Below are positions 7,501 through 64,000 of a stretch of DNA of 64,000 nucleotides, piece after piece. The position numbers and the translations under genes are program-made. Each line of letters opens with the position of its first letter. Positions within the stretch are counted from its first letter, which is position 1. The notes beneath the pieces were generated by a model. That model ran no database searches, had not been told where the DNA came from, and worked only from the letters and a program-made list of their open reading frames with translations. This DNA is from Anaerobium acetethylicum (lineage in GTDB: Bacteria > Bacillota > Clostridia > Lachnospirales > Lachnospiraceae), in assembly GCF_900096945.1 (NCBI RefSeq), contig NZ_FMKA01000013.1, positions 1 through 64,000 on the forward strand, in the 5' to 3' direction.

Positions 7501-7614
7501 AATATCGGATGCGGTATCGGTATTGCGCTTTTGGTTCTGTTTACTATATTGCGTTTTGTAAAAAAGAAAGAAAAAAGCAAAGTAGTTTGTGATATTTCAT
7601 ACTCGAACGAATAA
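4531..7614 (+). CDS. Circularly permuted GH3 glycosidase, membrane-anchored at both ends
   Basis: A glycoside hydrolase family 3 enzyme of 1027 residues, probably a beta-glucosidase or related exo-enzyme. The domain order is inverted: the C-terminal GH3 domain comes first (GIVLLKNDDQVLPL), then a fibronectin-III-like part (about 415-510), and the catalytic TIM-barrel domain lies at the C-terminal end (KHFAFNDQENHRGDRDGQ; nucleophile D906 in GLIITDN). There is a basic tail plus membrane segment at the N-terminus (VISAILVVVMIAAIVAA) and another near the C-terminus (IGCGIGIALLVLFTILRF, then lysine-rich). I chose ATG 4531 because AGGGAGG lies just upstream; an in-frame start at 4441 lacks one. 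It probably acts at the outer membrane face and follows the LytTR/GHKL pair. Confidence 0.88.
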   Translation: METTQKRVKKKRKAGKNGKVIKTVISAILVVVMIAAIVAANSLLVENSRIVNNIMGFNQKTISSSNVDSTGLDLAYNKSDYTPEEIGAAEDSLYDSISAEGIVLLKNDDQVLPLSKETTFSFFSVNAAKISIGGGMMGGGISLKDAFDQESVKMNDALWQFYSKGDGSEYGLGSGSISYGDSEDFSIKECPLSVLEGNEEVMESLSGTTPVYFLKRVAGEGRDMPRSMYNHADNKEDQAKSYLEPDTTELEILSYLNDNFNEVILVVNSNAALELDWLADFPNIKAVIYAPDGLAALPGILTGTINPSGRTVDTFASDALASPAAQNIGDYAYYAEDGTPTKYNYVSYKEGIYVGYKYYETRYEDVVLGQGNAGEYEYASEVCYPFGYGLSYTTFEWGNQQVTWNDSTCTVTVDVTNTGDVSGKDVVEIFVQSPYTEYDKENHVEKASVQLAGYDKTKELQPGETETVTVTFDEEQLKAYDYTNAKTYILDAGEYYIAAGKNAHDAINNILAAKGKTTAEGMTSDGNQNLASTYTPDIADTDAVTYSVDSYSGEQITNQLDAADGDIACLSRSDWQGTWPEHDGVASSVISTWGNEINGTDAEGNPASYTYYKTIDSEGLAQLDSFDSLSPVDPESFQDEIVYGEKNNLTLIEMRGLDFDDPLWEDLLDQLTPEDYYNTIGISGYGIEFIDSVNMPFCKDADTAAGLIYGGTGKMFPNMMTLAQTWNQDLALEYGTMIGNEAVLGGADGWYAPSMNIHRTPFSGRNGEYYSEDGFLSGTVASLEVKGAASKGLYTYIKHFAFNDQENHRGDRDGQFGLATWLNEQAARELYLLPFEICMKVGNIEQNYLVKNEDGTYKNAAREIPACQAVMTAFNRMGYTWTGGSYPLITGILRNEWAFNGLIITDNANTSLFMDCYQMIEAGGDIKLTSLSDSARFDYDKNDAATYHYGREAMHRLLYTVSNSKAMNGAMPGSVFKNEMLFTEKLKIGINIGCGIGIALLVLFTILRFVKKKEKSKVVCDISYSNE

Positions 7615-7630
7615 TAAAATCAAATAGGAC

Positions 7631-7909
7631 GTGATGCAAAACATGTTCATTCGCAGCGCGCTCTCGCTTAAATGAAGACGTAGTGGTACGTAAGGCCGCA
7701 AAATACGAGACCTAAGTACCAACGTCTTCATAAAGCTGCTCATTGAATCTTGTTTTGCATCACTGCGTGTTGGATGGCGAATGTGCAAATCGATGAAACT
7801 GAATGTTGCAAGAGAGCTTTGGACACTCTAATCCAGAGTATAAAAACAGAACATTCGGCATAACCATTTAGAACAATCATCCAGTGAAGTGATCTACAAT
7901 GGATTTGCA
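7631..7909. repeat. Two adjacent long imperfect palindromes between convergent genes
   Basis: The 280-bp gap between the GH3 gene and the convergent AraC gene is filled by two palindromic blocks. The first spans 7631-7763, with perfect outer arms (GTGATGCAAAAC and its complement at 7752-7763) and nested arms ATGAAGACGT (7672-7681) with ACGTCTTCAT (7722-7731) and TGGTAC (7684-7689) with GTACCA (7716-7721). The second spans 7784-7909, with arms TGCAAATC and GATTTGCA and nested GAATGTT/AACATTC. It may act as a bidirectional terminator or be a MITE-like insertion. It does not share the linkers of the other repeat family in this window. Confidence 0.6.
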
Positions 7910-12033: not shown

Positions 12034-12112
12034 GTTCAGAGGTCATCAAAAATCGAGTGTTATGTAAATCCAGCATAAAAATATCTCACAGGACAGAGGT
12101 TCTGAACAGTTT
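12034..12112 (+). repeat. Dispersed hairpin repeat, 3' half copy
   Basis: This matches the right half of the dispersed repeat family: a CGAG linker, a GTTATG...CATAAAAATA hairpin, then CTCACAGGACAGAGG and the terminus TTCTGAACAGTT. The left half is not recognisable. It lies directly after the rhamnosidase stop and before its terminator. Confidence 0.5.
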
Positions 12113-12978: not shown

Positions 12979-14328
12979 ATGCCAAATAACATGACAGAAG
13001 GGAGACCGATAAGACAGATCGTCTTATTTGCCATACCCGTTTTACTAGGTAACCTTTTTCAGCAATTGTATAACGTTGTTGATTCAATCATAGTAGGAAG
13101 ATATATCGGGGTCGATGCGCTTGCTGCGGTAGGTTCGACAGGAGCCCTGATTTTCCTTGTTTTTGGGTGGATCATCGGAATGACCAATGGTTTTTCCATT
13201 ATGATCGCCCAGAGTTACGGTGCCGGGGATTTCAAGAGGCTCCGCCAGTTTGCAGCGCTTTCCTTTGTGCTCTGTGCAGTTATGGCAGTGGTGATGACAA
13301 TCGGACTGTTATGGGCCAATGGATTTATTCTGCGCCTGATGCAGACCCCGGAGGAAGTATTCAAAGATACCTATAATTATATCGGAATCATGTATGCGGG
13401 ACTTGCAATCACGGTTTTCTACAATATGTATGCGGGCATGCTGCGTGCCATCGGCGACAGCCGGACGCCTTTATATTTTCTGGCGATTGCCTCAGTGCTT
13501 CACATCATTCTGGATATCGTTTTCATTAATGTATTTTCCATGGGAGTGGAAGGTGCAGCCTACGCCACTATAGTATCCGAATTTGTATCCCTGATCCTTT
13601 GCGTCTGGTATACGACAAAAAAATATGAGATTTTCAGGATGGGAAAAGAAGATTTTGCTATTGATGTAAGTAGAATCTGGAAGCTGCTGACCATGGGCGT
13701 GCCTATGGCCCTGCAGTTTTCCGTAACAGCGATCGGCACGATGATCGTGCAGGCAGCCTTAAACGGGATGGGCCCTTTGATCATGGCGTCCTATTCCGTT
13801 GCCGGAAAGATCCAGAGCCTTGTATCCCAGCCCTATGTGGCTCTTGGAGCTACGATGGCAACCTACGTGGGGCAGAACCGGGGTGCAGGTAAAATAGCAA
13901 GAGTAAGAGATGGCGTGAAGCAGGGCACAATACTGGCAGTTTCATTCAGCATCCTTTCAGCAGCTATTATATTTTTCTTTGGGGATGTGCTAATAAAAGG
14001 CTTTATCAGTGAGGATGTGCAGAACGTGACAAAAACAGCTATGATATATTTCCGTACCGTATTGTGGTTCTACCCATTTCTCAGTATGATTTTTATCTAC
14101 AGAAATTCCTTGCAGGGACTCGGAGACGGGCTGATGCCTATGATTGGCGGATTATTGGAACTTGCGGCCAGAGTTGTCGTGATCTATTTTGTTGCAGACC
14201 GTCTGGGATATCAGGGAATCTGCATGGCAGATCCATTTGCATGGATTCTTGTATCAGTGGCATTGATTCCCGTATACTATAAAAGGATAGCAACTATTCA
14301 GGACTACGTTCTTCATAGTCACAGATGA
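12979..14328 (+). CDS. MATE-family multidrug/Na+ antiporter
   Basis: A 449-residue exporter with about twelve membrane segments in two related halves, typical of MATE proteins (QIVLFAIPVLLGNLFQQLYNVVDSIIVGRYIG at the start; a second copy of the fold from about residue 235). I choose ATG 12979 because GAGAGG lies just upstream; the in-frame ATG at 12949 lacks a site. The last 11 codons (TIQDYVLHSHR) and the stop are made of dispersed-repeat sequence that recurs at 27.39 and 40.76 kb, so the repeat appears to have replaced the native 3' end. Substrate unknown. Confidence 0.93.
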   Translation: MPNNMTEGRPIRQIVLFAIPVLLGNLFQQLYNVVDSIIVGRYIGVDALAAVGSTGALIFLVFGWIIGMTNGFSIMIAQSYGAGDFKRLRQFAALSFVLCAVMAVVMTIGLLWANGFILRLMQTPEEVFKDTYNYIGIMYAGLAITVFYNMYAGMLRAIGDSRTPLYFLAIASVLHIILDIVFINVFSMGVEGAAYATIVSEFVSLILCVWYTTKKYEIFRMGKEDFAIDVSRIWKLLTMGVPMALQFSVTAIGTMIVQAALNGMGPLIMASYSVAGKIQSLVSQPYVALGATMATYVGQNRGAGKIARVRDGVKQGTILAVSFSILSAAIIFFFGDVLIKGFISEDVQNVTKTAMIYFRTVLWFYPFLSMIFIYRNSLQGLGDGLMPMIGGLLELAARVVVIYFVADRLGYQGICMADPFAWILVSVALIPVYYKRIATIQDYVLHSHR

Positions 14329-14432
14329 TGCACGCAAATTGCAAAATCAGCAATTTGGCGCACGCATGTCTCGGGTATTTATGCAAATTCAGCATAAATA
14401 CACCTCGCGTGACAGGGGTTCTGTACAGTTAC
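14291..14432 (+). repeat. Dispersed hairpin repeat, full copy
   Basis: A full-length member with the left hairpin ACTATTCAG...CATAGT, linker GATGATGCACGC, hairpin AAATTGC-AAAATCA-GCAATTT, linker GCGCACGCATGTCTCGG, hairpin ATTTATGC...GCATAAAT, linker CACCTCGCG, and the right end CTGTACAGTTAC. Its left end is read through as the last codons of the MATE gene. It separates MATE from the ROK gene. Confidence 0.75.
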
Positions 14433-15933: not shown

Positions 15934-16021
15934 TTGACAAGAGATATAATGTCTGTTAGTATTTAGTATATTAAATAAAGACGTTTTATAAAATGTAATT
16001 ACAAAATCAAATTATAAAACG
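15934..16021 (+). promoter_or_regulatory. Promoter plus ROK-type operator, site 2
   Basis: TTGACA (15934-15939), a 17-base spacer and TAGTAT (15957-15962), then AAATAAAG, ACG, TTTTATAAAATG and a TTACAAAAT tail. The element also extends to an inverted CGTTTTATAA...TTATAAAACG pair (15982-16021). It lies immediately downstream of the -10 box, where a repressor would block initiation. It controls the 16068 dehydrogenase/epimerase operon. Confidence 0.78.
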
Positions 16022-16067: not shown

Positions 16068-17096
16068 ATGAACATGAGAGCATTGGTATATAACGGCCCC
16101 AAAAGTATCCGGGTTGAGGATGTTGCAGTGCCGGCAGTCGGAGAGACTGATGTTTTGATCAGGGTGAAATATTGTGGAGTCTGTGGAACGGACATACATA
16201 TCTACAACGGTGAGGGCGGTGCTTTCGCAGTTGAACCACCTTTGATTATGGGGCATGAGTTCTCAGGTATCGTTGAAAAAACCGGCTCAAAGGTAAAAAA
16301 GGTTAAGCCAGGTGATCTGGTTACCATAGATCCAAATGATATGTGCGGCGAGTGCTATTACTGCAAGAACGGCATGGAGCAGTTCTGCCAGAACGTGACT
16401 GGATACGGAACCACGGTCAATGGCGGTTTTGCACAATATTGCGTTGTCAGCGAAAAACAGGTTTTCAGGTTTAAAGAGGGCATGGATGCTTTGACAGCAG
16501 CTATGGCGGAGCCGGTTTCCTGCTGTATCCACGGAATTGACCTTTGCAATATAAAACTGGGTGACGAGGTGCTGATCATCGGTGGAGGTCCTATTGGTCT
16601 CATTATTCTGCAGCTTGCTAAAATGGCAGGCGCCAGCAAGGTGATTCTCTCAGAACCCGTTGCGGAAAAACGTGAGCTTGCAATGAAGCTTGGAGCAGAT
16701 CTGGCTATCAATCCGCTGGAGGAAGACGTTCCTGAAATTTTAAAGGCCAACTGCAAGAACATCAATGTTGTGATCGAATGTGTAGGAAATCCCCGCACGA
16801 TTGACAACGCCATCCAGTGGGCTGGAAATGGAGCCACGGTCATGATGTACGGCCTGACAGGACCTGATGCTGAGATTGCGGTAAAGCCGGACGTGGTATT
16901 TAAGAAAGAACTGAAGCTGACAGCTTCCTTTATCAATCCTTACACCTTCGAAAGGACGATCGCCATTCTGGAATCCGGGAAGGTGAACGTAAGGGATCTC
17001 ATCACTGATATAGTTGGTCTTGAAGATTCCGTTAAAGTGTTTGAGGATGAGAAATACAGGCGCAGCGGCAAGGTCGTTATCCAGATGAATGACTAG
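16068..17096 (+). CDS. Zinc-dependent polyol/alcohol dehydrogenase (MDR)
   Basis: A 342-residue medium-chain dehydrogenase of the sorbitol/threonine dehydrogenase group. The catalytic zinc ligands are C39 (GVCGTD) and H63-E64 (GHE), the structural zinc cysteines are C93, C96, C99 and C107, and the NAD-binding loop is GGGPIGL. Enzymes of this group oxidise a polyol to a ketose with NAD+. AAGGAGG precedes the start. It is the first gene of an operon with the 3-epimerase 48 bases on, so its product is probably the ketose the epimerase acts on. Exact polyol (arabitol, sorbitol, others) not determinable. Confidence 0.9.
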   Translation: MNMRALVYNGPKSIRVEDVAVPAVGETDVLIRVKYCGVCGTDIHIYNGEGGAFAVEPPLIMGHEFSGIVEKTGSKVKKVKPGDLVTIDPNDMCGECYYCKNGMEQFCQNVTGYGTTVNGGFAQYCVVSEKQVFRFKEGMDALTAAMAEPVSCCIHGIDLCNIKLGDEVLIIGGGPIGLIILQLAKMAGASKVILSEPVAEKRELAMKLGADLAINPLEEDVPEILKANCKNINVVIECVGNPRTIDNAIQWAGNGATVMMYGLTGPDAEIAVKPDVVFKKELKLTASFINPYTFERTIAILESGKVNVRDLITDIVGLEDSVKVFEDEKYRRSGKVVIQMND

Positions 17097-18202: not shown

Positions 18203-18280
18203 TTGACAATATGTACAATCTGTTGTAAAGTATTTTTAGAGATAAATAAAGCGGTTTTATAAAATGATTTTAAAAAATCG
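18203..18280 (+). promoter_or_regulatory. Promoter plus ROK-type operator, site 3
   Basis: TTGACA (18203-18208), a 17-base spacer and TAAAGT (18226-18231), then ATAAATAAAG at 18242, CGG, TTTTATAAAATG and a TTTTAAAAAATC tail. It has the same arrangement as sites 1, 2 and 4 and drives the SDR gene at 18373. The 346-bp gap 18027-18372 holds nothing else I recognise. Confidence 0.78.
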
Positions 18281-19138: not shown

Positions 19139-19290
19139 GTAACTGTTCACTCCGTGACCAGTAACATGCTTCGCGATGCACAGAAATGGTTGAAATGCAC
19201 CATTTCGTGCTGCAATCCTCGGGTTTTATGTGACTTTCGCTTCGCTACACTCACAAAAACACCTTGCGATGGATGACGTATGAACAGTAA
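19139..19290 (+). repeat. Dispersed hairpin repeat, full copy with divergent stems
   Basis: It keeps the linkers GATGCACAG, CCTCGGG and CACCTTGCG, but the stem sequences differ from other copies: left hairpin GTAACTG...CAGTAAC, middle AAATGG...CCATTT, right GTTTTATGTGA...TCACAAAAAC, right end TGAACAGTAA. Conserved linkers with changed but still paired stems argue for selection on structure. Confidence 0.72.
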
Positions 19291-19352
19291 TGGTATAGCA
19301 CTACATCTAATCATTGGTTTCTGAAATAAACGGCGAAATGCTGTTTATATAT

Positions 19353-22992: not shown

Positions 22993-23132
22993 GAAACTGT
23001 TCAAGATTAAGTTTTTCCTGGTCGAAGGGGATGCACACAAATTCAAATGCCAGTAATTTTGCGCATGCGTAACTTGGGGTTTATGCAGAATCAGCACAAA
23101 ACACCTTGCTGTACAAGAGCTTAGAACAGTTA
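22993..23132 (+). repeat. Dispersed hairpin repeat, full copy
   Basis: The outer ends AACTGTTC and GAACAGTT are exact inverted repeats here. Inside are GGGGATGCACAC, an AAATT...AATTT hairpin, GCGCATGCG, CTTGGGG, a TTTATGC-AGAATCA-GCACAAA hairpin and CACCTTGC. It lies between the importer operon and its terminator. Confidence 0.72.
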
Positions 23133-23152
23133 CGAATAATCTTAATGATCTG

Positions 23153-27384: not shown

Positions 27385-27386
27385 AT

Positions 27387-27455
27387 CACTATTCAGGACT
27401 ACGTCCTTCACAGTTACACGTGATGCACATAAATTGCAGAACATGGATCTGCATT
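27387..27455 (+). repeat. Dispersed hairpin repeat, 5' half copy
   Basis: CACTATTCAGGACTACG, CCTTCACAGTTAC, GTGATGCACATAAATTGC and a following short stem match the left half of the family. The right half is missing, and the copy runs into the ribosome-binding region (GGGAG) of the kinase gene. It fills the gap between aldolase and kinase genes. Confidence 0.65.
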
Positions 27456-31197: not shown

Positions 31198-31275
31198 TTG
31201 ACAATCCCAAGGACTAAGTATATAATACGCTTATAGATAAATAAAGTCATTTTACAAAATGAATTTACAAAAATA
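31198..31275 (+). promoter_or_regulatory. Promoter plus ROK-type operator, site 4
   Basis: TTGACA (31198-31203), a 17-base spacer and a perfect TATAAT (31221-31226), then GATAAATAAAG at 31236, TCA, TTTTACAAAATG and a TTTACAAAAA tail. It has the same layout as the other three modules. It drives the SDR/ribulokinase operon and sits about 30 bases before that ribosome-binding site. Confidence 0.8.
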
Positions 31276-33872: not shown

Positions 33873-33911
33873 ATATTAGGTTACTGTTCACAGAGTGACC
33901 AGTAACAATAT
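33873..33911. repeat. Solo left-hairpin remnant of the dispersed repeat
   Basis: ATATT and GTTACTG pair with CAGTAAC and AATAT, with a TTCAC-AGA-GTGAC inner part. It has the same core as at 31.13 kb, and lies just before the ROK copy 3 promoter. Confidence 0.5.
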
Positions 33912-40754: not shown

Positions 40755-40900
40755 AGTGACTATGCAGGACTACGCCCTTCATAGTCACAGATGATGCACA
40801 CAAATTGCAAAATCAGCAATTTGGCGCACGCAGAACTCGGGTTTTTATGCAAAATCAGCATAAAAACGCCTCGCGTAACGGGACTGCTGGATAGATACAC
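40755..40900 (+). repeat. Dispersed hairpin repeat, full copy (best-formed)
   Basis: Three perfect hairpins are present: GTGACTATG/CATAGTCAC (40756-40788); CAAATTGC/GCAATTTG (40801-40823); and GTTTTTATGC/GCATAAAAAC (40841-40867). The last two have the identical loop AAAATCA. The linkers are AGATGATGCACA, GCGCACGCAGAACTCGG and GCCTCGCG. It lies between the GH30 gene and its divergent AraC gene. The rest of 40585-40940 has no gene. Confidence 0.78.
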
Positions 40901-42008: not shown

Positions 42009-43523
42009 ATGAAGACGAAAAAAGTATTTTTAACCGGCGCGACAGGTTCCATGGGACAGGCCACATTAAAAGAGCTGTTGAAAACGGATCTTGAGATCGT
42101 TGCACTGATCCGGGATACCAGGCTGGATAAAAAGCTGATCAGGCCATATTTGAGGAATAAGAACCTGAAGGTCCACTACGGAGATCTTACAGTATACGGG
42201 GATGTTCTGCGCTGCATGAAAAGTGTCGATATCGTGCTGCACTGCGCAGCCTTTGTATCCCCGGCCGCCGACTATGATCCGAAGCTTGCCATGGAGATCA
42301 ATTATGGTTCCATTGTAAACATCATAAATGCCATCAAGGCACAGCCGAACTGGCAAGAAATCAGACTTGTCAGTGTAGGCACTGTCGCTGAGACGGGGGA
42401 CCGGATGCCGCCGATACACTGGGGGAGGGTGGGGGATCCGATCAAACCAAGCGTGCATGACTATTATGCGGTATCCAAAATCGCAGCAGAAAGGGCCGTC
42501 ATTGAGTCCGGACTGAAATACTGGGTTTCCTTAAGGCAGACTGGCATACTCTGTGAAAAGATGTCCAAAATCAGCGATGCCATCATATTCCACAACGGCC
42601 TGGACAACGTGCTGGAGTATGTAACCGATAAGGATTCCGGCGTCCTTATGAGAAACTGCTGCAACGACCTTCCGGGCGACTTCTGGGGTCATGTCTACAA
42701 CATAGGCGGAGGACCAGGATGCCGTATGAGCTGCTACGAAATGTTCAAAAACATGTTCGAGCCTCTTGGCATCAGGAATCTGGAGAACGTGATCGACTCC
42801 AGATGGTTCGCAACCAGAAACTTCCACGGCCAGTATTATCTGGATAGCGATAAGCTGGAGGAGTATCTGCATTTCCGAAGCCAGGATAAGCAGTATTTCT
42901 TTGATATCTATCGGAAGAATATGGGAAGCCTCGTGCCCATTGCGAAGCTGGTCACGAGGCTTCCTGGTGGAGAAAAGCTTATGGGGGCAGTCATCAGGAA
43001 AAGAGTTACAAAACATCTAATGGACGAGAGAGGAACCCTGAACTGGATTAAGAACAACAATGAGGAGTTCATAGCTCCGTTCTTCATTTCAAAGAAAGAA
43101 TGGCGGAAGATACCAAAATTGAGCCAGATGAAGCACTTCACAGACTGGAACAAGGTAGTTGAGATCGATCATGGATATGACGAGACAAAACCGGAATCGG
43201 AATTATGCCTTGAGGATGTAAAAGCCGCAGCACGGTTTCGCGGCGGCGAATGTCTGTCAGACAGCATGCAGACAGGAGAATGGGGCAAAAAACTGAAATG
43301 GAAATGCGCATTCGGGCATGAGTTCGATGCGAGTCCCAGGCTTGTCCTGGAAGGCGGGCACTGGTGCCCGGAGTGTGAACGTAAAAGCTGGAATTATCAT
43401 GAAGTGGCGAAGCGGAATCCGTTTTTTGCCCAGGTCTGGTATCCGCTCCACGACAAGAAGGAGCCCTCAAGGGAATATAGCAAGGAAGTGAGCGAACTGG
43501 ATGTCAGAATTGATGGTAAGTAA
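42009..43523 (+). CDS. Extended SDR (NAD epimerase-like) fused to a zinc-ribbon domain
   Basis: A 504-residue protein. The N-terminal two thirds is an extended SDR: cofactor loop TGATGSMG (about residues 10-17) and active-site YYAVSKIAAE near residue 155. After a variable middle, the last 110 residues carry KCAFGHEF and CPECERK, a Cys-x4-His/Cys-x2-Cys zinc-ribbon or treble-clef-like module. Such a fusion is not the usual form of UDP-sugar epimerases. GGAGG precedes the start. Function unknown; sugar-nucleotide or steroid-like substrates are both possible. Confidence 0.78.
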   Translation: MKTKKVFLTGATGSMGQATLKELLKTDLEIVALIRDTRLDKKLIRPYLRNKNLKVHYGDLTVYGDVLRCMKSVDIVLHCAAFVSPAADYDPKLAMEINYGSIVNIINAIKAQPNWQEIRLVSVGTVAETGDRMPPIHWGRVGDPIKPSVHDYYAVSKIAAERAVIESGLKYWVSLRQTGILCEKMSKISDAIIFHNGLDNVLEYVTDKDSGVLMRNCCNDLPGDFWGHVYNIGGGPGCRMSCYEMFKNMFEPLGIRNLENVIDSRWFATRNFHGQYYLDSDKLEEYLHFRSQDKQYFFDIYRKNMGSLVPIAKLVTRLPGGEKLMGAVIRKRVTKHLMDERGTLNWIKNNNEEFIAPFFISKKEWRKIPKLSQMKHFTDWNKVVEIDHGYDETKPESELCLEDVKAAARFRGGECLSDSMQTGEWGKKLKWKCAFGHEFDASPRLVLEGGHWCPECERKSWNYHEVAKRNPFFAQVWYPLHDKKEPSREYSKEVSELDVRIDGK

Positions 43524-43541: not shown

Positions 43542-43595
43542 ATGAATAACATAACAGCCGATGGCAGGAGAGCCATCGGCTGTTATGTTATTCAT
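43542..43595. terminator. Very strong bidirectional terminator hairpin
   Basis: Two perfectly complementary 24-base arms (43542-43565 and 43572-43595) flank the loop AGGAGA. The stem core AACAGCCGATGGC is GC-rich and the flanks are AT-rich, so it works for both convergent genes. The MerR stop codon lies inside the right arm. Confidence 0.88.
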
Positions 43596-44025
43596 GTGCA
43601 TGATTGTAGAGTGCCTGAATGTCCGCTGGCAACTGATCAGGGAGCATGGCATTTATATTTTCTTCGCTGCCATCCTTGATGGCCTTCTCATAATACCAGC
43701 ATTTGAAGCGAAGCATATCGAGAGTCTTCTGCATCTGTTCGATTTCATTCTCAACAGATTTCCTGCGGTTTTCAAATAATTCTTTTCGCAGAGGATAGGT
43801 AGAACTGCCTTCCGTACACCATTGCATGAACTGTTTGATCTCTTTGATTTCCATGCCGGATTTCTTGAGACACTCAATAACATGGATCGCTTCGATTTCG
43901 GCATCACTGAAGCGGCGGATGCCAGATATTCGTTCAATATTAGGAAAAAGCCCTTCCTTGTCATAATAGCGTAAAGTAGATATAGGTAATCCAAACATTT
44001 CTGATACTTGTCCGATTGTGTACAT
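43588..44025 (-). CDS. MerR-family regulator
   Basis: A 145-residue MerR regulator with the start MYTIGQVSEMFGLPISTLRYYDKEGL (winged helix) and a dimerising coiled coil (ENRRKSVENEIEQMQKTLDML). There are no conserved cysteines typical of metal sensors, so it more likely senses an organic or redox signal, as NmlR/AdhR relatives do. It is divergent from a hydrolase gene, with a MerR-type promoter between them. AAGGAGA precedes the start on the minus strand. Confidence 0.92.
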   Translation of the reverse strand: MYTIGQVSEMFGLPISTLRYYDKEGLFPNIERISGIRRFSDAEIEAIHVIECLKKSGMEIKEIKQFMQWCTEGSSTYPLRKELFENRRKSVENEIEQMQKTLDMLRFKCWYYEKAIKDGSEENINAMLPDQLPADIQALYNHAHE

Positions 44026-46680: not shown

Positions 46681-46707
46681 AAAGTTTGAATTTATGGGGT
46701 ACAGTGC

Positions 46708-46938
46708 ATGAAAAAAATGGGAATCGGAGCTGCAATTGCTAGTGTTATGATTGCAATAATTGGCATCATTTTAAAAGCTAAAGAAAACACATCAGTATCA
46801 ATAATTGGTGGTGCTGAGGGTCCTGCATCTATTATTATTTCTAGTAAAGTTAATGAAGGGTTGGGGAGTGTTGGAATTGCCATTGGCATAATTGTATGTA
46901 TCATTGGGATGGTAGTATGGAAAACGGAGACTTTTTAA
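46708..46938 (+). CDS. Mini-membrane protein with degenerate OadB signature (copy 1)
   Basis: A 76-residue protein with two membrane segments (IGAAIASVMIAIIGIIL and VGIAIGIIVCIIGMVVW) flanking SVSIIGGAEGPASIIISSKV. This middle part resembles the GGADGPTSIF signature of the beta subunit of sodium-pumping decarboxylases (OadB/GcdB), here with Asp changed to Glu and Thr to Ala. It is far too short to be a pump. Function unknown. A paralog lies at 49405 and both share a promoter block. The ribosome-binding site is weak (GGGGTAC). Confidence 0.7.
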   Translation: MKKMGIGAAIASVMIAIIGIILKAKENTSVSIIGGAEGPASIIISSKVNEGLGSVGIAIGIIVCIIGMVVWKTETF

Positions 46939-49370: not shown

Positions 49371-49404
49371 GAGAATAACTATTAATTTGGGGGAGGAACA
49401 TTAT

Positions 49405-49671
49405 ATGAAAAAAATGGGAATTGGAGCTGCAATTGTTGGTGTGATGATTGTAATAATTGGAATCATTTTAAAAACTAAAGAAAATGCATCGGTATCAATA
49501 ATTGGTGGTGCTGATGGTCCCACATCTATTTTTATTTCCGATAAAGTTAATGTAGGACTAGGGATTGCTGGGATTGCCATTGGCATAATATTATGTATCA
49601 TTGGCATAACATTATGTATCATTGGGATGGTAATTATTTTTAAGAAGAAAAATCCGGGCCAGGGAGAATAG
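49405..49671 (+). CDS. Mini-membrane protein with intact OadB signature (copy 2)
   Basis: An 88-residue paralog of the 46708 protein, with two membrane segments around SVSIIGGADGPTSIFISDKV. GGADGPTSIF matches the signature of the beta subunit of sodium-pumping oxaloacetate/glutaconyl-CoA decarboxylases (GGADGPTAIY in OadB), a region of the sodium path in that much larger protein. GGGGGAGG precedes the start. The second helix carries an internal duplication (ILCIIGITLCIIGM) absent from copy 1. Function unknown; a GGCCAGG/CCTTGGCC stem overlaps the stop. Confidence 0.75.
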   Translation: MKKMGIGAAIVGVMIVIIGIILKTKENASVSIIGGADGPTSIFISDKVNVGLGIAGIAIGIILCIIGITLCIIGMVIIFKKKNPGQGE

Positions 49672-52184: not shown

Positions 52185-52258
52185 TCTAGAGGTGTTTTTA
52201 TGCTGGTTTTGAAATTTGTGTGCATCAATTGTCATTCTGAAGGACGTAGAAATGATTG
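52185..52258 (-). repeat. Dispersed hairpin repeat, collapsed copy inside the element
   Basis: On the minus strand it reads CTACGTCCTTCAGAATGAC, TTGATGCACACAAATTTC, then AAAACCAGCATAAAAACACC. This is the family's left half joined to its right half at the CAAAATCAGCA motif, with the DNA between the two identical loops missing. The same region otherwise (51980-52275) is AT-rich and holds no gene. Confidence 0.65.
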
Positions 52259-61627: not shown

Positions 61628-64000
61628 GCGCGGAACGTTCCGCTATGAAAAGTAGTGGCACAGTTCTGCTGAATTATTAAATAAATTCAGTTCAACTGGA
61701 GAACTGAACACATGAATTGTCGAATGACAGGGTAACGCCTTGAAAGGCATCCTTAATCCTCCGACTTGCATGGATATGAGTAAACATTGAAATGTAAGAA
61801 GCTCGGTGAAGTCGGCAGAAAGGCACCGTAACAGTTTGGCTGACGAAAGCTACCCAGAGGTGGGCGGTGTGTCTGATATGCCGGAGGTCTATAAGTTACC
61901 TATGGTTAGAATGAGGAGAATAGACAAGCTCTTCTGACGAATCTTCGAATGTACGGGTCTATATCGGGACTATGTAGAAATGCATAGTGACACAAATAGT
62001 GTCGCTAGTGTGGGTGAGTAAGACTTCGCCTTTATGAAAGTCCATGCATTGTTATAGGCAATGGCAAGCTAGCAGGCTCATAGAAGAAACCTAAGGGTAA
62101 AATGTAAAGATAATGTGTTCGGAACGTTCGAAGCTGACAACGTGGAGAATTTACTTTCTGTGAAGCGTATCAAACGGGAAAATCACGCAAGTGATATAAG
62201 GGAGATTATGTCAGTGAAAGCGGAGGTATGGTACCTATGAAGCCATGATAATAAGTGGTGGAGGGAAGACCTCTAGTCGTGTAATTAGTAAATCAAAATC
62301 GAATTGGTATGGGTTCGTGTAAGACTAAGAGATGTACTCACTCCTAGATTGGAGGATACAGACCATGCTAAAGAAAGCCAAGCTACGTTATAACGAATAC
62401 TATGATATGCAAAAGGTGTTCGATTCCTTATACGCAGCTAGCAAAAACGGTAACAATTTTTATAAGTTACTAGAGATTATCGGTTCAGAAGAAAATATTC
62501 GTTTAGCATATCGTAATCTGAAAACAAACAGTGGTAGTAATACTGCTGGAACTGATGGGAAAACCATTGAAGATATCAAAACTCTTACAGATAAAGAAGT
62601 CATTGATACAGTTAGAATTATGTTAGATGATTTTATGCCAAGTTCTGTGAGAAGAGTGTTCATTCCAAAGCCAGGTAGTGATAAAAAGCGACCTTTAGGA
62701 ATTCCGTGTATATGGGATAGGCTCGTTCAACAATGCATTCTGCAAGTGTTAGAGCCAATATGTGAACCAAAGTTTCATAATCATTCCTATGGATTCCGCT
62801 CAAACAGAGGAGCAGACCATGCAATCAGCAGAACTGTCAGTATGGTTAATATGTTTCGTCATTACTATTGTGTTGATGTTGATATTAAAGGATTTTTCGA
62901 CAATGTTGACCATGGCAAGCTATTGAAACAGATATGGACACTAGGTATCAGAGATAAAAGGCTGATTTGTATTATCAGCAAAATCCTAAAATCAGAGATA
63001 GAGGGAGAAGGAATTCCAACGAAAGGAACGCCACAAGGTGGCATTATCAGTCCGCTACTGTCTTTGATAGTGTTGAATGAATTGGATTGGTGGGTAAGTG
63101 ACCAATGGGAAACATACCAACCAAAAAGATTTTCGAATAAGAAGAGCTTTTATTCCTATGCAAGGAACTATACCAATCTGAAAGATGGATTCATAGTTAG
63201 ATATGCAGATGATTTTAAAATCATGTGTAGGACATACGATGAAGCTCAAAGATGGTATTATGCTACGGCTGATTTCTTGAAAACAAGGTTGAAGTTAGAC
63301 ATTAGTCCAGAGAAATCCAAAGTAGTAAATATGAAGAAAAACTCGTCAACATATTTAGGGTTCAAAATAAAGGTTGTACCAAAAGGGAAAACAAGATACG
63401 GATTTATTGCAAAAACGGATATGAGCGACAAGGCAATCAGGAAAGCCAAAACTAACCTGAAAGCTAAGATTATTAACATCCAAAAGCATACCTCATATAT
63501 AGCCATAGAGAATTATAATTCAGCGGTCAGAGGTATACAGAATTATTACAGTATTGCAACAAATGTTTATAACAACTTAACGGATGTGAGTTACGCTCTT
63601 TTGCCGACCATTAGAATACGTCTAAGAGATATCAGTAAAACAGTCCCATTTAGGGAAACAGATATCGAATTTCAGCGAAAAGCAACTGGAATCAGAGATG
63701 ACACAAAGATTGTAAAAATAGGTTCACAGACATTACTTCCGATTACGGCGGTACGTCACAGAAGTCCTATGAATTTCTCACAAGACACAACGAATTACAC
63801 AGATGAAGGAAGAGAGAAAATTCACAGCAATCTGGAAAAAGTTACAGAATTAGAATTTGAAGCACTTGCAAGAGGCAGAGACCCTAATGAATCTGTTGAA
63901 TTCAATGATAATCGTATATCAGCTTTTGTAGTTCAACAAGGGAATTGTTATATAACAGGTCAGAAATTAAATGCCAATGATATGAAATGTTTTAGGAAAA
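61628..64000 (+). mobile_element. Group II intron inserted in the VirD4 gene (3' end outside window)
   Basis: The intron begins at about 61628 (GCGCG after codon 170 of VirD4; the exact base is uncertain by a few positions). About 740 bases of non-coding, hairpin-rich sequence follow, including paired stretches such as AGTTC/GAACT near 61690-61706, then the reverse transcriptase/maturase frame from 62365. Domains V and VI and the 3' splice site must lie beyond 64000. The orientation matches the host gene, as needed for splicing. Confidence 0.8.
62365..64000 (+). CDS. Group II intron reverse transcriptase/maturase (C-terminus outside window)
   Basis: At least 545 residues without a stop. RT motifs are in order: RRVFIPKPGSDKKRPLGIP, the CDVDIKGFFDN-type motif (VDVDIKGFFDNVDH), TPQGGIISPLLS, and the catalytic YADD (FIVRYADDFKIM). 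A thumb/maturase part follows (YNSAVRGIQNYYSIA). The frame ends in GNCYITGQKLNANDMKCF, the start of an HNH endonuclease domain. TTGGAGG precedes the ATG at 62365. It splices and mobilises the intron. Cut by the window end. Confidence 0.92.
   Translation, partial: MLKKAKLRYNEYYDMQKVFDSLYAASKNGNNFYKLLEIIGSEENIRLAYRNLKTNSGSNTAGTDGKTIEDIKTLTDKEVIDTVRIMLDDFMPSSVRRVFIPKPGSDKKRPLGIPCIWDRLVQQCILQVLEPICEPKFHNHSYGFRSNRGADHAISRTVSMVNMFRHYYCVDVDIKGFFDNVDHGKLLKQIWTLGIRDKRLICIISKILKSEIEGEGIPTKGTPQGGIISPLLSLIVLNELDWWVSDQWETYQPKRFSNKKSFYSYARNYTNLKDGFIVRYADDFKIMCRTYDEAQRWYYATADFLKTRLKLDISPEKSKVVNMKKNSSTYLGFKIKVVPKGKTRYGFIAKTDMSDKAIRKAKTNLKAKIINIQKHTSYIAIENYNSAVRGIQNYYSIATNVYNNLTDVSYALLPTIRIRLRDISKTVPFRETDIEFQRKATGIRDDTKIVKIGSQTLLPITAVRHRSPMNFSQDTTNYTDEGREKIHSNLEKVTELEFEALARGRDPNESVEFNDNRISAFVVQQGNCYITGQKLNANDMKCFRK

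Follow-up and report, generated by a model that had tools for sequence, protein, structure and literature searches.

Structure of the element in the window

The window (the whole stretch of Anaerobium acetethylicum DNA that was analysed, 64,000 nt) contains four complete copies of a dispersed, protein-free element of 141–153 bp, whose ends were fixed by terminal repeats and duplications. The sequence-only reading had reported four near-complete copies with common linkers around three hairpins; all four are real, its coordinates were off by a few bases only, and the linkers and hairpins are as it described. The copy under study is complete (143 bp, 40756..40898, plus strand) and belongs to subfamily A. 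A profile made from other copies in the genome recovered it (E = 7.7e-36), its core was recognised by a covariance model, and through flank comparison we found an imperfect 8-bp duplication on its two sides (ACAGGAGA/ACGGAAGA, 6/8).

Hairpin 1 of this copy (40756..40788, plus strand) is formed in the strand fold by the left terminal repeat and an inverted internal copy thereof. Hairpin 2 (40793..40827, plus strand) comprises the linker GATGCACA, the stem CAAATTGC/GCAATTTG and GCGC; its foot pairs GCAC with GCGC around one bulged A, and one A.C on the plus strand corresponds to G.U on the minus strand. Hairpin 3 (40836..40875, plus strand) comprises CTCGGG, the stem TTTTTATGC/GCATAAAAA and a CACCTCGCG-type linker (here CGCCTCGCG), and its foot pairs CGGG with CC-T-CG, leaving one bulged T. 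In general, hairpin 2 reads on the plus strand as GCAC, one bulged A, the stem S-AAAT...ATTT-S and GCGC (AAAT/ATTT was required by the scan described below), and hairpin 3 reads as CGGG, a stem rich in T, then CC, one bulged T and CG. Part of each of the linkers CTCGGG and CACCTCG therefore forms one side of the hairpin 3 foot. A k-turn was considered for this foot and dropped, as one-bulge pairing fits.

The other complete copies are also on the plus strand, and the core of each was recognised by the covariance model. Two belong to subfamily A: the copy at 14290..14432 has a perfect 8-bp duplication (AAAGGATA on both sides, 8/8), and the copy at 22993..23133 (141 bp) is diverged and its duplication has decayed (2/8). 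The copy at 19139..19291 (153 bp) belongs to subfamily B, with the duplication GGTATAAC/GGTATAGC (7/8). Besides these, the window has at least three partial copies and one solo left hairpin. The partial copies, all of subfamily A, are a left half at 27386..27444 (plus strand, profile positions 2–60, E = 3.2e-12), a right part at 12057..12111 (plus strand, positions 87–141, E = 6.8e-8) and a fragment at 52201..52249 (minus strand, positions 15–63, E = 1.8e-4). The solo hairpin, of subfamily B, is 27 bp long without a core (33880..33906, plus strand; profile positions 1–29 matched at 33880–33908, E = 0.0024), and an identical 27-mer with a 7/8 duplication occurs at G000:C13:4537.

The profile was built from 34 genome copies with a duplication of at least 7/8; the copies at 40756 and 22993 were not among them, and the latter was also recovered (E = 2.8e-16). 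The covariance model has 82 model positions and 27 training rows, which include the four window copies; in the window it found the four complete cores with E ≤ 4.5e-12, and the next match had E = 0.25.

Unrelated kinds of genes flank the window copies, namely the pairs MatE transporter/ROK protein, short-chain dehydrogenase/sugar-binding protein, permease/alcohol dehydrogenase and GH30 hydrolase/AraC regulator.

Copy number and placement in the genome

The A. acetethylicum assembly comprises 4.61 Mb in 105 contigs, of which 2.34 Mb (51%) could be read without N. This part contains 76 near-complete copies (at least 100 profile positions covered), 64 with subfamily A as the best profile and 12 with subfamily B. 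The density is about 32 near-complete copies per Mb, which would give about 150 copies genome-wide if the sample is typical, and at this density the element shapes the intergenic regions of its genome. BLAST alone gave at least 43 and at least 44 matches (40 of 208 and 40 of 242 candidates scored). Among 75 copies placed against ORFs, for which a simple length-based proxy was used, 62 are located between ORFs and 13 inside one. Element sites occur in all four arrangements of neighbouring genes.

Terminal repeats, duplications and insertion

The terminal inverted repeats of the element are about GTWACTRTTCA...TGAAYAGTWAC in A. acetethylicum and other copies. In the genome sample we found 404 terminal-repeat pairs 18–400 bp apart, not all of them separate elements; a perfect 8-bp duplication flanked 43 and a 7/8 duplication 27, and one shuffle of the flanks gave none above 5/8. 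For pairs 135–156 bp apart, perfect duplications at lengths 4 to 12 numbered 0, 1, 0, 1, 30, 0, 0, 0 and 0, with the 30 at 8 bp. Both ends were located for 37 of the 40 A. acetethylicum cores and 79 of the 90 cores from elsewhere, and when the ends were set by the terminal repeats alone, a duplication of at least 7/8 was present in 23/37 and 61/79 of these elements, respectively. Core-bearing copies span 110–166 bp, which is too short for a transposase gene. There was no clear target-site consensus among the insertion sites.

Insertion of the element is supported by one orthologous empty site. The element at locus L236 (MAG Lapin-002 bin83, duplication TGGTTGAC) is absent from L297 (Lapin-023 bin50), where the flanks align collinearly at 88 and 93%, the two aligned blocks being separated by 79 bases. 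In L297 the last 19 bases of the left flank, including the target copy minus one base, join the right flank directly; the sequence left of those 19 bases differs too. An occupied site with an identical duplication is common to two genomes (L223 and L247).

Considering the terminal inverted repeats, the 8-bp duplications, the many copies and the empty site, the element very probably belongs to the MITE class of non-autonomous transposable elements. Its ends would be moved by an outside transposase, and its core would be kept for its fold. A MITE was one of three possibilities that the sequence-only reading had named, and it is the one that these data favour.

Shorter forms were also detected. 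In 26 cases, similar ends and a duplication of at least 7/8 bound a sequence of 21–82 bp; at least one of these is possibly a chance palindrome, and a 27-bp solo left hairpin of subfamily B is among them. Such remnants probably arose by internal deletion, with short direct repeats close to both ends as breakpoints, and are probably not minimal transposons. A 29-bp form (GTAACTATTCAGGACTACTGAACAGTTAC) is present at two sites and could have arisen by deletion between GGACTAC repeats near both ends. The 27-bp left-hairpin palindromes of subfamily B occur 18 times solo, 7 of them with a duplication of at least 7/8, compared with 14 times within core-bearing copies.

Two sequences, at G000:C42:78978-79171 (194 bp) and L249:3573-3747 (175 bp), have similar ends and perfect 8-bp duplications around other interiors, and one mobility system may move several families.

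Distribution in other genomes

The element occurs in a family of gut bacteria. We scanned 299 genomes of this family (one genome per genus) with a pattern in which GATGCACA, AAAT/ATTT and parts of two linkers were fixed and the other stem letters were free. Seven genomes matched, including that of A. acetethylicum, and the reversed pattern gave 0 matches in the 299. The pattern scan of named genomes gave at least 106 stretches, and a relaxed search of the gathered sequence gave 130 cores, 40 of them from A. acetethylicum. By accession prefix these cores come from at least 29 genomes, for example those of the cultured carriers Blautia schinkii and Anaerocolumna sp. MB42-C2. In genome G135, apparently the CAMQZX assembly since its sites C13:821-870 and C21:3517-3566 coincide with L258 and L245, the cores are almost identical and hence probably young. 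BLAST with one A. acetethylicum copy against the 299 genomes found only its own genome and one weak relative, and thus similarity alone hides the family.

Two unannotated fecal phage records resembled a subfamily B copy (72% identity over 99% of it and 77% over 67%). Plasmid sequences had no match to the element, and viral contigs had 0 exact matches to the pattern.

A related hairpin layout was observed in MAGs of other Clostridia (L195:6227-6323, L212:1808-1903, L226:914-1009, L263:335-430 and L224:456-509). It consists of a variable hairpin, GATGCACA-hairpin-GCGC and a different third hairpin, with no GTTAC ends, and the covariance model scored 34–39 bits in the four loci searched (L195, L212, L226 and L263). 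These five loci represent a different, related family.

Fold and covariation of the core

On both strands, 40755–40900 folds more stably than any of 200 shuffles (z = -5.3 and -5.6), and with DNA parameters the fold of 40756–40898 likewise beats all 200. The sequence-only reading had observed that stems differ between window copies and stay paired. The pairing is indeed kept, but the differences are mostly those of subfamily A against B, since the copies at 14290, 22993 and 40756 are A and that at 19139 is B. On larger alignments the compensated stems were borne out.

Three alignments were used. The 27-row alignment for hairpin 2 was obtained from 82 of the 90 cores from other genomes, reduced to 30, minus 7 and plus the four window copies; it has 43 double-changed cells against 17.5 in shuffled alignments, a value reached by 0 of 500 shuffles. 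The 18-row alignment for hairpin 3, restricted to the ATTT type and with one misaligned row kept, has 25 against 7.7 (0 of 500). The model-fitted alignment was drawn from 62 chosen sources (61 loci and the window), which gave 69 matches including five of the related family and one that is cut off. Its 65 distinct rows have 254 double-changed cells against 80 shuffled (0 of 500) and 16–36 in slid controls, with 94.4% of cells paired and double changes in 17 of the 26 pairs; this shuffle count is not a probability, because the alignment was fitted to the structure, its rows are related and 5 of the 69 matches are the related family. Independently of that alignment, covariation is supported by the numbers of distinct stems in the 130 cores, 61 for hairpin 2 and 84 for hairpin 3; the scan had left free the outer S pair and the inner pairs of hairpin 2 and the whole stem of hairpin 3. 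The numbers of further pair types were not above shuffles (reached by 481, 499 and 119 of 500 in the two hairpin alignments and the model-fitted alignment). A large alignment in which covariation was lacking would have spoken against a selected fold; the large alignments made here covaried.

One-sided wobble is scarce: hairpin 2 has two G-U cells beside its 43 double changes, and hairpin 3 has none beside its 25. Double changes far above one-sided wobble are unusual for an RNA helix and favour arm copying or a reading at the DNA level. Part of the covariation could thus come from mutation that copies one arm to the other. In its strongest form this gives an ordinary MITE, in which pairing is kept by mutation alone (template switching in quasi-palindromes) and the fold has no function; we regard this as possible and rather unlikely. 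Base-paired transcripts, which are general among bacterial MITEs according to part of PMC2229807, would agree with it, and the linkers disagree, being kept although arm correction would not protect them.

Conservation of the linkers was partly imposed by the search, as the scan required GATGCACA, GNGC and CNCGGG and the regular expression tolerated small departures only. The four window copies were found without the pattern and represent two subfamilies; by hand count they are invariant in 18 of 23 linker columns, compared with 62 of 146 positions overall. CACCTCG lies outside the scan pattern and is exact in 98 of the 130 cores (up to two changes allowed; seven others look like a misplaced anchor). 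CTCGGG is exact in 118/130 and GATGCACA in 129/130, both partly imposed by the search. The compensated stems are strongly supported, between subfamilies and between genomes, but arm copying could also yield such stems; selection behind the paired stems is likely, not proven.

Evidence on the molecule and strand

The evidence on the molecule is mixed and leans weakly to RNA from the minus strand as the selected one. The consensus energy is -85 for the minus strand and -74 for the plus strand (17 rows, out of 48 after removal of similar ones). Over distinct stems, with hairpin 3 counted in 77 of 84, plus-strand A.C mismatches outnumber G.T by 30 to 8 (p = 0.0005); counted per genome and position the numbers are 29 and 7 (p = 0.0003), and collapsed across genomes 13 and 7 (p = 0.26). 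The hairpin 2 foot has a common minus-strand wobble, with GCGC in 114/130 cores, whereas the hairpin 3 foot has the opposite sign with 12 plus-strand G-U cells. Where both neighbouring genes run in the same direction, sense corresponds to the minus strand of the element at 25 of 38 A. acetethylicum sites and 25 of 39 others (50/77 in total, p = 0.012; p = 0.11 for sites of other genomes alone). For the three window copies between co-directional genes, the sense strand is the plus strand.

A structured regulatory RNA, a riboswitch-like leader or small RNA retained by the host at many loci, would fit the covariation, the lower minus-strand energy and the sense bias at the 77 co-directional sites. 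It would not explain the 8-bp duplications, the empty site, the occurrence in all four gene arrangements, the unrelated neighbours or the plus-strand sense of the three co-directional window copies. At the gathering score, no Rfam family matched the element, either in the window or in the 17 scan loci (of 106) that were compared, and weak Rfam matches on one copy were rejected (E of 0.6 or more). We consider such an RNA improbable: of the structured RNA proposed by the sequence-only reading, a stand-alone host role is unsupported given the scattered context, while an RNA role within the MITE is possible.

Search for a partner transposase

An autonomous element with the same ends (GTTACTGTTCAC and an 8-bp duplication) was not found in 2.34 Mb of the 4.61 Mb A. 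acetethylicum genome, in which many small contigs were masked, nor in 745 kb of other loci. Insertion sequences often land on small contigs in draft assemblies. In a complete Anaerocolumna record the exact 15-base ends had 16 matches, with no pair 1–4 kb apart. Terminal-repeat pairs 600–6000 bp apart with a duplication of at least 7/8 numbered three in A. acetethylicum and one elsewhere; all were 7/8 with imperfect repeats and were taken as chance. The partner may have been lost, masked or unread, or may be alike only in its outermost bases.

IS66 ends begin with GTAA and IS66 makes an 8-bp duplication. Like these, the subfamily A consensus begins with 5'-GTAA and is flanked by 8 bp, but subfamily B and many relatives begin with GTTA, and PF03050 (IS66), which matched in 57 of 150 family genomes, had no match in the A. 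acetethylicum genome at E 0.001. An IS6/IS26-type MITE is resembled in the 8-bp duplication and in 7 of 11 bases by hand count (GTTACTGTTCA against the IS6 end GGTTCTGTTGC given in part of PMC6807381), but the element does not start with GG, and the sole PF13610 (IS6/IS240) gene of the A. acetethylicum genome was rejected, as the ends in its flanks do not match the element. PF00872 (IS256) was detected in 3 of 8 carriers, once as a weak 37-residue match, and PF01610 (ISL3) in 1 of 8; neither had a match in the A. acetethylicum genome. Genome G135 has an open IS256-type gene at C152:2965-4083.

PF01797 (Y1) matched in 4 of 8 carriers, including A. acetethylicum, and had no match in the other four, one of which is only 68% complete. 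To our knowledge, Y1 single-strand transposition makes no target-site duplication and REP/BIME elements are without one. REP/BIME-like palindromes mobilised by a Y1 (RAYT) transposase, a reading suggested by short dispersed palindromic units, by solo hairpins (18 against 14) and by these Y1 genes, are therefore very improbable, given the clean, often exact 8-bp duplications and the carriers without a Y1 match.

Comparison with known elements and proposed mechanism

The comparison with known families drew on parts of PMC6807381, PMC2229807, PMC11109978 and PMC8632094. Bacterial MITEs such as Correia/NEMIS, RUP, ERIC and others are similar in having about 100–200 bp, terminal inverted repeats, target duplications and no need of a protein of their own, and bacterial MITE transcripts are in general highly base-paired (PMC2229807, in part). 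The ends of our element are different, and that part attributes to none of them linkers that are conserved while the stems co-vary across many genera. MRSC-65-2 is likewise a multi-copy mobile bacterial repeat supported by covariation, with its RNA or DNA form left open (PMC11109978, in part); compared by description, it has a single long stem and a UYCCGG repeat, whereas our element differs in its motifs, folds into three hairpins and has defined ends flanked by 8-bp duplications. Among the open PMC results listed, no title or abstract start named the element, and a term search in PMC10969869 gave 0 occurrences. By the searches made here, the element is of a known class, the MITEs, and apparently a new family with an unusually structured core.

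For this MITE we propose that a DDE-type transposase encoded elsewhere would recognise the terminal repeats and cut with an 8-bp stagger. The core consists of two hairpins, both of which have a one-base bulge and a short foot rich in G+C. It would be retained in source copies because, folded as minus-strand RNA or single-stranded DNA, it would be needed for the spread of the element or for host tolerance, and copies would decay once inserted.

The interior of a MITE is generally regarded as dispensable. In this element the 82-position core is recognisable by structure in at least 29 genomes while its stem letters change, and the element is a testable case for a cis-acting nucleic-acid structure in transposition or host tolerance. 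We might speculate further, tentatively and with more doubt than confidence, that it is a mobile nucleic-acid device whose spread depends on a specific protein reading the folded non-coding two-hairpin core, as minus-strand RNA or single-stranded DNA, and that sequence is constrained only in the feet, bulges and linkers. The core is maybe older than the present ends, because the related hairpin layout of the other Clostridia MAGs occurs without terminal repeats.

Other features of the window

A second dispersed repeat, unrelated to the element, is located at 7600–7870. It had 86 BLAST matches including itself in the readable half of the genome (about 150–215 bp among the best), and by eye its pieces seem to adjoin several elements. 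A 42-nt AT-rich motif occurs three times (15965–16006, 18236–18277 and 31231–31272), upstream of ORFs starting at 16068, 18373 and 31303, and is perhaps a regulatory site common to the three; a 61-base query over its second copy matched these three only in the readable half of the genome. A 222-nt repeat is present in two copies with 84% identity (46698–46919 and 49395–49616), and there was no third copy in the readable half of the genome.

Where the ORFs at 42009–43523 (plus strand) and 43588–44025 (minus strand) face each other, 43542–43595 contains a perfect 24-bp inverted repeat with a 6-base spacer, perhaps a two-way terminator. A group II intron RNA is located at 61699–61895 (Rfam RF02004, 175.9 bits).
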